A stretch of DNA of 64,000 nt from NCBI RefSeq assembly GCF_003732545.1, contig NZ_AYKF01000013.1:1-64000 (forward strand), in the 5' to 3' direction. Below are positions 26,002-42,940 of this stretch, piece by piece; position 1 is the stretch's first letter; every line of letters starts with the position of its first letter. The notes under the pieces were generated by a model that did no database searches, was not told the DNA's origin, and was given only the letters and a program-made list of their open reading frames with translations. Source of the DNA: Salinisphaera orenii subsp. halophila YIM 95161. Its GTDB lineage: Bacteria; Pseudomonadota; Gammaproteobacteria; Nevskiales; Salinisphaeraceae. The position numbers were made by a program, and so were the translations under genes.

Positions 26002-26173
26002 CACCGCCGGGACGCAACCCGACCCGTCAATCGCCTGATCCGGCGCGGCTTCGACCGCAGCCGACACAGCGCGAACGCGGTCCGGCGGCCAACGGCGTCG
26101 GAGAACCTGCCAGTCGCCCGACTGCGACCGCTGCGCCCCTCGCAAGGCATTGATCCATTGGTTTTCCCGGTGA

Positions 26174-26189
26174 GGGCACATTTCTGGCC
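26174..26189 (+). promoter_or_regulatory. Weak sigma-54-like element upstream of the broken PEP-CTERM gene
   Basis: The 16-mer GGGCACATTTCTGGCC has the essential GG-N10-GC spacing (GG 26175-26176, GC 26187-26188) and matches 8 of 12 fixed positions of TGGCACG-N4-TTGCA. It is 47 bases before the ATG. On its own it would be weak evidence; it gains weight from the better sites at the other two PEP-CTERM genes. Confidence 0.4.
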
Positions 26190-26235: not shown

Positions 26236-26880
26236 ATGAAACAGGTCAGCACGATGGTGTTCGCAGCGGCGATGGTCGCCGCCGGTTCCGCGAGCGCCGC
26301 CACGAACACCTACGACAGCACCCCGACGCCAACGGCGTGCCCATGTCCAGCGTTGCCGGCGTGACCGCCGTCGACTTCAACAGCGGCTGCGGTTATGCCG
26401 CCTGCAGCGGCAACTATGCGCTGGTGACCGGCAGCTCCGGCCAGTAGGCGCCCCGCCCCGGGCCAGCGACCCCGACACCACGGAGTATCCGACCGTGCCG
26501 GAGAATCTCAGCCAACAGCCGATCTCCGCGGAGTTCTCGCTCGGCACCTCCGCCAATTACTTCGGCCTGCTCTGGGACTCGATCGACGACGACAACACGC
26601 TCGAGTTCCTGCTCGACGGCACCGTCGTGGACAGCTATGCCGGTCTCGACATCACCAATCCGGCCGACGGCAACCAGAACTCGCCGGGGACCACACCCAC
26701 GTGAACTTCTTCGGGGTGCCCGAGTTCAACGGCATCCGCATGACCCGCTCGCCGTACGCGTTCGAGAGCGGCAATCGCGCCTTCGGCAAGACCAGCGTGC
26801 CCGAGCCGGGCGCACTGGCGCTGTTCGGCGCGGGTCTGGTGGGCGCCGCCTGGGCGCGGCGTCGCACCCACGGCGGCTGA
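26236..26880 (+). pseudogene. PEP-CTERM surface protein gene broken by three frameshifts
   Basis: The ATG at 26236 follows an AGGAG site and encodes a signal peptide (MKQVSTMVFAAAMVAAGSASA). Coding then moves through three frames: to about 26320 (stop at 26364), 26325-26447, about 26460-26690, and 26690-26880. Joined, the pieces read as one exosortase-target protein: SSVAGVTAVDFNSGCGYAACSG, NYFGLLWDSIDDDNTLEF, then HVNFFGVPEFNG and a C-terminal PEP-CTERM tail (VPEPGALALFG, a hydrophobic helix, then WARRRTHGG). Each shift equals the loss of one base and each lies at a C or G run, so either real decay or homopolymer sequencing errors are possible. Confidence 0.8.
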
Positions 26881-34174: not shown

Positions 34175-34407
34175 GCCGCGTCGACACACCGCACACACAG
34201 GCGACCCGGCCGGCGCTGTCGGCCCGGCCGACAGCCACGCCCGCGGCCCCGCCTTGCGCAAAACAGCGATTCGGCCATCGGATTCAATCACTTGCCGCAA
34301 CGCGCGCTGTGACCGCAGGAAAAACTCATGTCGTAATCGCTTACACAGCATGAGCGGATGAAACGCCGTTCTTTCTCAAATCTATGATTCATATCCGTTT
34401 TCCGTTC

Positions 34408-34423
34408 TGGCACGCGGCCTGCA
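34408..34423 (+). promoter_or_regulatory. Sigma-54 promoter of the vWA-like PEP-CTERM gene
   Basis: TGGCACGCGGCCTGCA matches 11 of the 12 fixed positions of the RpoN consensus TGGCACG-N4-TTGCA, with GG and GC exactly ten bases apart. The -12 element ends 78 bases before the ATG at 34502. RpoN promoters need an activator ATPase; for PEP-CTERM genes the PrsK/PrsR pair is a known example. Confidence 0.75.
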
Positions 34424-34452
34424 TCGAAAAGCCCGGGCCCGGGGGCGGGCTC

Positions 34453-34476
34453 GTCCCGAGGCGATCGCTTCGGGAC
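34453..34476 (+). repeat. 24-base near-palindrome in the 5' leader
   Basis: GTCCCGA and TCGGGAC (7 bp, perfect) flank a segment containing the palindrome GCGATCGC. It lies between the sigma-54 element and the ATG, so it would be in the untranslated leader and can form a hairpin. It could instead be a protein-binding site. No further copy was seen in the window. Confidence 0.5.
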
Positions 34477-34501: not shown

Positions 34502-35206
34502 ATGAAACTCAGGACATTGAGAAACATGCTGGTCGGTACGACATTGCTCGCGGGCAGCGCGACGGCCAGCGCGATCCCGATCGAACTCGGGCTCGCCATC
34601 GACGGCTCGGGGAGTATCGGCTTCTCCACCTTCCAGGCCCAGCAGAACATCTACGCCGACGTGTTGAGCGATCCGAACATCGTCCCGCAGGACGGCTCGG
34701 TCGCCATCGCGGCGCTGGTGTTTTCCAGCTCGTTAAACACCCTGTTCCCGGCGACCGTCATCGATCCGACGACCATCGGCGGTGTGGCCGACGCCATCCG
34801 CAACGCGACCTATCCGGGCGGCGGCACCAACATCGGTATCGGCATCGACGCGCTGACCAGCGAGATCTTCGGCAACGGCATCGACTCGGATCGCCAGGTC
34901 ATCGACGTCTCGACCGACGGGGTGGGCTCGCTCGGCACCTCGGTGGCCGATTCGCTCGCGGCCGGCGTGGATCAGATCAATTGTCTGGGCATCGGCGCGG
35001 GTGCGAACTGCAGCTTCATTCCGGACGACTCGTTCTCCGTGATCATAAGCTCCTTCGACGACCTCGAGAGCGCACTGCGGCAGAAGCTGCAGCGTGAAAT
35101 CGGCGGCGGGCCGATCGGCGTGCCCGAGCCGAGCGCCCTCGCCGTGCTGGCCCTGGGTCTGGCCGGCATCGGTGCGGCCGGTCGGCGCCGGGCGCGTCGG
35201 GGCTGA
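34502..35206 (+). CDS. PEP-CTERM sorted surface protein with DUF1194/vWA-like domain
   Basis: A 234-residue exported protein. Residues 1-24 are a signal peptide. The mature part begins with PIELGLAIDGSGSIG, whose DGSGS at 34-38 is a vWA metal-ion (MIDAS) motif, and continues with GGGTNIGIGIDAL and VSTDGVGS, fitting DUF1194-type proteins. The end (207-234) is VPEPSA, a hydrophobic helix and an Arg-rich tail: the PEP-CTERM signal recognised by exosortase, which removes it during export to the surface in exopolysaccharide-producing bacteria. A GAGGA ribosome site precedes the ATG and a sigma-54 promoter lies upstream. Confidence 0.9.
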   Translation: MKLRTLRNMLVGTTLLAGSATASAIPIELGLAIDGSGSIGFSTFQAQQNIYADVLSDPNIVPQDGSVAIAALVFSSSLNTLFPATVIDPTTIGGVADAIRNATYPGGGTNIGIGIDALTSEIFGNGIDSDRQVIDVSTDGVGSLGTSVADSLAAGVDQINCLGIGAGANCSFIPDDSFSVIISSFDDLESALRQKLQREIGGGPIGVPEPSALAVLALGLAGIGAAGRRRARRG

Positions 35207-41801: not shown

Positions 41802-42485
41802 TCAGCCGATACGGCGTGTCCGCCACGCGCCGAGTCCGACCAGCATCAGGGCCAGCCAGGCAAGCGCGGTGCCCGCCGGTTCGGCCACGTCCACCGGCGG
41901 CGGCTGCCCGCCGTCGACGACGAAGCTGCTGTCGTCACCGTCGCCGATGCCCTGGATGTGGGCGGCGGAAATATAGCCCGCCGCGTTGGGGACGAACGGC
42001 GATGCGCCCAGCGCGTCGGCGAAGATCAGGTCGTAAACGGCCTGCTCGGCCCCATCGAGGCGCCCACCGGTGCCCTGGACGGCCCAGTTGAAGGCCAGAT
42101 TGTAGTCGCCGGTGCCCGTCGGCCCCGCATTCAGACCCGCCTGGTTGAACACGGCATCCGCACAGTTTCCGCTCGTACAGCTGAGCGACTGAACGCTCGG
42201 CGAAAGCGAGAACGCCCAGCCCGACTGGGCATTGGCGTTGCGTCCCCCCTGCACGAAATCGCCGCCATCGAGCAGCGACATCAGCGTCAACGTACCCGTC
42301 GTGGCGCCGGTTTCGTAAGAGAACTCCGCGCTGAGCCATGGCAGCGCTCCCGTCGGGGTCGCTCCGGTATACACCGAATCGAGATCGATGGTCTGGGTCA
42401 TCGGCACGGCCAGCGCCGCCCCGCCCCAGGCCGCCGCCAAAAATACACCGGCCTCGAGCAACCGTCTGATATACCTCGCACGCAT
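41802..42485 (-). CDS. PEP-CTERM-like exported protein with variant (AEP) sorting motif
   Basis: A 227-residue protein with a signal peptide (about 1-26, AGVFLAAAWGGAALA) and a beta-rich, Gly/Thr/Ser/Ala-rich mature part with one Cys pair (CTSGNC). The C-terminus (200-227) has the three-part layout of an exosortase signal: short motif, hydrophobic helix and basic tail (WRTRRIG). The motif reads VAEPAG instead of VPEP, so Ala replaces the first Pro. The ATG at 42485 has a GAGGTG ribosome site; the frame is open to 42554 but that part looks like leader. A sigma-54-like element lies 70 bases upstream. The family of the mature part is not recognised. Confidence 0.8.
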   Translation of the reverse strand: MRARYIRRLLEAGVFLAAAWGGAALAVPMTQTIDLDSVYTGATPTGALPWLSAEFSYETGATTGTLTLMSLLDGGDFVQGGRNANAQSGWAFSLSPSVQSLSCTSGNCADAVFNQAGLNAGPTGTGDYNLAFNWAVQGTGGRLDGAEQAVYDLIFADALGASPFVPNAAGYISAAHIQGIGDGDDSSFVVDGGQPPPVDVAEPAGTALAWLALMLVGLGAWRTRRIG

Positions 42486-42554
42486 GGCCTGCACCTCGTT
42501 CCATTGTGGCGCCCTGCCCTCGGCAGGGAGGAAAACCGGCATCGGGCCAAACAT

Positions 42555-42570
42555 TGCATATTTCGTGCCG
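42555..42570 (-). promoter_or_regulatory. Sigma-54-like promoter of the variant PEP-CTERM gene
   Basis: On the minus strand CGGCACGAAATATGCA matches 10 of the 12 fixed RpoN positions with the exact GG-N10-GC spacing. It lies 70 bases before the ATG at 42485, about the same distance as at the 34.5 kb PEP-CTERM gene. Confidence 0.65.
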
Positions 42571-42940
42571 TTTTACAGACCACTGAACATATTGATTTTT
42601 TCTGGGGGTAACCGCGTCCACGCGCTGTAGATGTCAGAAGCGCCGACAGCTGAGCGCTCGAACCGGACGGTCCGCCGGCCGCCGAGCCCGATTCTTGTCG
42701 GTGGCGACCCGCCGGCTCACGTTCCGGCAAGCCGTGTCGATTCGGGCAGTTGCCCAGCATCAACCATAGATCGGCTGCCCGCCGGGCAACATCGGGCATA
42801 CACACGGGCCCGGGAGGCCGCGCCATCCAGCGCGGCGGCAGAACGTGGCCCGGGAGCGACCGGATGCAAGAACTTCCGACATCCCATCAGCCAGCGGCCG
42901 CGGCACATCGAATCTTCACGGGCCGGAACGGGTCACACGA
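42571..42940. other. Gene-free stretch between the PEP-CTERM-like and DUF1127 genes
   Basis: About 370 bases. One frame on the plus strand (42631-42951) is Arg/Ala/Pro-rich with no domain and is not believed. A small near-palindrome TGCCCG-C-CGGGCA occurs near 42778. Nothing else is recognised. Confidence 0.4.

Follow-up and report, generated by a model that had tools for sequence, protein, structure and literature searches.

What turns on the gene for a vWA-like surface protein that begins at position 34502 of the 64,000-nucleotide stretch analysed here (the window, which is contig C13 of a 3.79 Mb genome in 153 contigs)? An earlier note had pointed to a sigma-54 promoter just upstream of this gene and to a small sigma-54 regulon of surface proteins carrying PEP-CTERM sorting tails. 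In our view a true sigma-54 promoter very probably stands here and, together with an upstream activator-binding site, turns on the surface-protein gene. The elements concerned are the following.

34329-34345, + strand: motif 1, the predicted PrsR enhancer box TGTCGTAATCGCTTACA, 17 bp, no mismatches to the consensus
34346-34407, + strand: AT-rich spacer, 44% G+C against 68% in the window
34408-34423, + strand: sigma-54 -24/-12 promoter TGGCACGCGGCCTGCA, 11/12 fixed positions, GG-N10-GC, joint matrix score 31.7
34435-34476, + strand: two tandem stem-loops (34435-34452 and 34453-34476) in the predicted 5' leader, MFE -36.4 kcal/mol, z -3.8
34502-35206, + strand: gene for a vWA/DUF1194 protein of 234 aa with the PEP-CTERM tail VPEPSALAVLALGLAGIGAAGRRRARRG (Pfam)

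The sequence, coordinates and strand first given for the sigma-54 site are all correct, and so is its described geometry: the GG (34409-34410) and GC (34421-34422) stand at the exact GG-N10-GC spacing, 11 of the 12 fixed letters of TGGCACGNNNNTTGCW are matched, and 78 nt separate the end of the site from the ATG at 34502. Transcription is predicted to start near 34434. A lone match of this kind was rejected as evidence, being above chance neither in the window, where the pattern with up to two mismatches occurs 19 times against 21.6 expected from shuffles, nor in the genome, where the pattern with at most one mismatch occurs 184 times against 270 for a reversed control pattern. What makes the case is the paired PrsR-type box. 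This box is an imperfect dyad that fits the Salinisphaera consensus TGTCG-N6-CTTACA, is separated from the sigma-54 site by 62 nt and is unchanged in S. orenii. The genome holds only seven perfect copies of the consensus, this one included, and five of them (those of the vWA gene, C63:59477, C63:60108, C143:26042 and C1:189639) have, 53-96 nt downstream, a sigma-54 site of no more than two mismatches and beyond it a gene for a secreted protein. Another perfect copy (C63:58483-58499, - strand) precedes the epsB2-prsK-prsR-prsT cluster and has no sigma-54 site, and the copy at C70:14100 is without clear role. When one mismatch to the box is allowed, 10 of 24 copies have a sigma-54 site (≤2 mismatches) at the same 53-96 nt distance, where 0.2 would be expected.

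A matrix describing both boxes and trained on 13 sites, all outside the window, leads to the same place. Over both strands of the window, the pair at 34329/34408 has the highest joint score (31.7), followed by 42648/42570 (23.1), 26096/26174 (20.2) and a next best of 15.7; the maxima of 200 simulated windows average 17.2 and reach 27.7, so that the score of the 34329/34408 pair lies above all 200. Only the 34408 site is significant by itself in the window. The three highest ranks are nevertheless the upstream regions of exactly the three PEP-CTERM genes that the window contains, from which the other two sites named in the earlier note gain support. Several of the training sites were picked for their position before PEP-CTERM genes, and within this genome the matrix is thus not fully independent.

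In the product of the downstream gene Pfam recognizes DUF1194 (2.5e-14), VWA (PF00092, 3.5e-9) and PEP-CTERM (3.7e-5), and its sorting tail is over the cut-off of both PF07589 (24.1 bits) and TIGR02595 (23.9 bits). It combines the PEP motif, hydrophobic stretch and basic C-terminal end of PEP-CTERM proteins with an N-terminal signal peptide, the signal-peptide-like character of the N-terminus having been read by eye. In its Pfam matches to DUF1194 and VWA and in its MIDAS-like residues (DGSGS at 34, GGTNI at 107 and VSTDG at 136, by eye) it resembles other DUF1194/vWA-domain proteins, from which it differs in carrying a PEP-CTERM sorting tail. Its nearest named relative, 99% identical, is from Salinisphaera orenii MK-B5, and of the 17 family genomes searched two carry the gene, the present genome and what is apparently that of S. 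orenii. Since the S. orenii copy is nearly identical and there is no further orthologue, conservation has little power and was set aside as support for the promoter; the promoter regions of the two genomes differ at 10 of 327 positions. One stem position of the leader, 34455, differs in S. orenii, and we therefore place little weight on the two hairpins, which might stabilise the message and whose importance is uncertain.

The two further PEP-CTERM genes of the window are arranged as follows.

42632-42648, - strand: motif 1 of the second gene, TGTCGGCGCTTCTGACA, one mismatch, spacer 61
42555-42570, - strand: sigma-54-like site CGGCACGAAATATGCA, two mismatches, joint score 23.1
41802-42485, - strand: gene for a secreted protein with a VAEP-type PEP-CTERM-like tail, recognized from its sequence and below Pfam/NCBIfam thresholds
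26096-26112, + strand: degenerate motif 1 CGTCGGAGAACCTGCCA, a weak match of 6.9 bits, spacer 61 to 26174
26174-26189, + strand: sigma-54-like site GGGCACATTTCTGGCC, three mismatches to TGGCACN5TTGCW, 13.3 bits on the trained matrix
26236-26880, + strand: PEP-CTERM pseudogene, broken by a frameshift and a stop

Both sigma-54-like sites that had been noticed before these genes thus exist, and a good box stands upstream of the one at 42555; the box upstream of 26174 is degenerate and the gene behind it has turned out to be a pseudogene. The box at 42632-42648 is kept in S. orenii amid diverging surrounding sequence, and the GG-GC distance of the 42555-42570 site is two bases longer there. The start codon at 42485 follows that site by 69 nt. 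The longest open reading frame here (41802-42554) would begin at 42554, upstream of the predicted transcript start, and the promoter favours the ATG at 42485. In the pseudogene the stop is found at the same place in S. orenii, and the degeneracy of the 26096 box is as expected of a decaying unit.

Pattern and family searches across the whole genome show how far the association extends. Ten PEP-CTERM genes are over the TIGR02595 cut-off, and seven of them have a sigma-54 site with at most one mismatch within about 100 nt of the start; the chance of such a site is about 0.005 per gene for 200 nt, giving a binomial P of about 1e-14. The enrichment of RpoN sites upstream of PEP-CTERM genes, on which the earlier note had staked its proposal, was thereby borne out, and four of the 15 perfect sigma-54 sites in the genome stand before these genes. 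The idea of a surface-protein regulon holds as well; the word "small" does not, since we count some 12-14 genes. Among the genes downstream of the two-box module, those on C1 (VPAP) and C88 (VAEP) have PEP-CTERM-like tails that the models miss, and the one on C143 (VPTAG) is doubtful. In the last case the protein encoded behind the module (C143:26042, + strand) is secreted and ends in VPTAGIWSLYALAVSAMFGAFRFGARG; it lacks the PEP letters and may be an exosortase client all the same.

Several other loci deserve mention in their own right. At C75:35437-35529 (+ strand) a strong module (score 30.9, spacer 61) has no PEP-CTERM gene downstream; it may be an orphan promoter, serve a short unrecognised peptide or be a remnant. 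The PEP-CTERM gene at C64:56787-57530 (+ strand) has a perfect sigma-54 site and an in-frame TAG inside its signal peptide (MKMLGAIGGFAALMFV*AGAHA), which could reflect either a pseudogene or a sequencing error. At C110:77827-77923 (+ strand) the gene behind a module with a score of 25.4 encodes a small secreted protein that lacks a PEP-CTERM tail and is DUF1311-like by eye. The sigma-54-less box at C63:58483-58499 (- strand) immediately follows a terminator-like hairpin, with about 120 nt between the box and the epsB2-prsK-prsR-prsT cluster, and it is possible that PrsR feeds back on its own operon through this box. We also entertain, at somewhat short of even odds, a broader view in which the module marks exosortase clients better than protein models do, PrsR defines a wider and partly unrecognised set of sorted surface proteins (with VAEP, VPAP and even VPTAG tails), and PrsR may act in addition on its own cluster by way of the sigma-54-less box.

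The same arrangement is found in other members of the genus. Besides S. orenii, four Salinisphaera genomes contain five intergenic matches to the strict two-box pattern, and all five precede genes with VPEP or VPAP tails; two genus-wide module matches inside coding sequence (G008 and G011) were taken as chance. For the cross-species test the matrix was trained on this genome only and a score of at least 20 in the upstream region was counted. Of 22 PEP-CTERM genes from five further Salinisphaera species, 17 score at this level upstream, compared with 0/22 on the opposite strand and 3/22 downstream as controls, and in one of the three downstream matches the next gene is another PEP-CTERM gene, whose own promoter would fall there. 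Because the matrix is not fully independent within its own genome, this other-species test is the cleaner of the two. The association between module and PEP-CTERM genes thus covers six Salinisphaera genomes. Across the 17 family genomes, seven have PrsR, and these are also the seven that have PEP-CTERM genes.

The machinery that such regulation calls for is encoded in the genome. PrsR (677 bits), PrsK (649 bits) and PrsT (479 bits) are all over cut-off, and there is an EpsB2 glycosyltransferase (524 bits), along with XrtA-type amidotransferase and FemAB proteins. There is one RpoN (TIGR02395, 456 bits) and a single exosortase (PF09721, 219 bits, C63:39907-40659). In S. orenii the matches to C63 and C13 are about 120 bases apart, so that the start of the window is probably close to the exosortase/PrsKRT locus on C63 and just past it, with the vWA gene some 40 kb from that locus.

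We propose that the PEP-CTERM surface protein is regulated from a two-box PrsR/sigma-54 promoter, and we put the probability of this mechanism at roughly 0.87. RpoN polymerase would bind 34408-34423, form a closed complex and wait. PrsR, as an NtrC-type activator, would be phosphorylated by the membrane kinase PrsK and would then bind the TGTCG-N6-CTTACA box at 34329-34345, contacting the polymerase by looping across the AT-rich 62-nt spacer. ATP-driven formation of the open complex should follow, and the transcript should start near 34434. The protein is expected to be exported by the Sec pathway, to have its PEP-CTERM tail processed by the single exosortase and to end up on the cell surface or within exopolysaccharide; there its vWA domain would probably bind a ligand through a metal ion. 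The genomes show the two boxes, their spacing, their link with PEP-CTERM genes and all the protein components; binding of the box by PrsR, activity of the promoter, the start site and an adhesive role of the product are inferred.

It is also possible, though unlikely, that the sigma-54 promoter is real and is driven by a sigma-54 activator other than PrsR, of which there are at least seven. Eight activator-type proteins in the genome do match the PrsR model at length, but only one of them passes the PrsR cut-off, and the shared distribution of PrsR and PEP-CTERM genes over the family and the same profile match found by Haft et al. in 13 proteobacteria (Haft et al., 2006; PMC1569441) speak against another activator. 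The 17-bp box could instead be conserved in PEP-CTERM promoters for another role, for example as the site of a bending protein or a repressor, and the perfect box that precedes the epsB2-prsK-prsR-prsT cluster without a sigma-54 site speaks for such a role. The box is dyad-like, however, and its distance from the promoter (50-96 nt upstream) is the one expected of an NtrC-type enhancer, and the PEP-CTERM genes that bear it follow the distribution of PrsR; we regard a non-activator role as slightly less likely still than a different activator.

A very improbable explanation is that the match is due to chance, transcription of the gene coming instead from a sigma-70-type promoter that escaped recognition or from read-through out of the upstream DUF2069 gene. 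In its favour, TGGCACN5TTGC matches with up to one mismatch are, taken singly, no commoner than chance in the genome, and no + strand terminator is predicted between the DUF2069 and vWA genes. Against it, no sigma-70-like promoter was found in the 34408 promoter region, the joint score is beyond anything in the simulated windows, and the module is strongly associated with PEP-CTERM genes both genome-wide and genus-wide.

The two-box PrsR/sigma-54 promoter can be compared with known systems. Haft et al. described, before proteobacterial PEP-CTERM genes, a 17-nt motif 1 ending TTTACA and, on average 62.8 nt (range 32-92) downstream of it, a sigma-54 site (motif 2) with about 71 nt left to the start codon; PrsR was the binding protein they proposed for motif 1 (Haft et al., 2006; PMC1569441). 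The Salinisphaera module resembles theirs in its 17-nt box, TTTACA-like 3' end, spacer of about 62 nt and sigma-54 site, the likeness of the boxes being judged by length, 3' end and spacing and applying to the right half of the box only. It resembles it too in the monocistronic PEP-CTERM genes, the linked PrsK/PrsR/PrsT and the roughly 71 nt to the start codon. It differs in that the Salinisphaera box reads TGTCG-N6-CTTACA and in that two genes here have 96-nt spacers, just past the published range. In Aquincola tertiaricarbonis RN12, pepA has a TGGCAC/CTGCTT sigma-54 promoter with a start located by primer extension and dependence on RpoN1 (PMC9850573). The vWA gene is likewise a PEP-CTERM gene with a predicted sigma-54 promoter; unlike it, pepA adjoins prsT and acts in floc formation, and the vWA/DUF1194 product matches the PepA model only in the sorting tail. 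We found no literature joining Salinisphaera with PEP-CTERM and no published demonstration of PrsR binding.

We conclude that the predicted PrsR/sigma-54 regulon is very probably a real one, built as described by Haft et al., 2006, and extending that scheme to Salinisphaera. Control of exosortase substrates by PrsK/PrsR had rested mainly on the 2006 computation and one RpoN-dependent gene. Salinisphaera provides an independent test, in which PrsR and PEP-CTERM genes are either both present or both absent across 17 genomes and the two-box module precedes most PEP-CTERM genes of the genus and predicts further ones. The value of the finding lies in a clean, genus-wide confirmation and in a defined consensus, TGTCG-N6-CTTACA, which is now open to direct experimental test.
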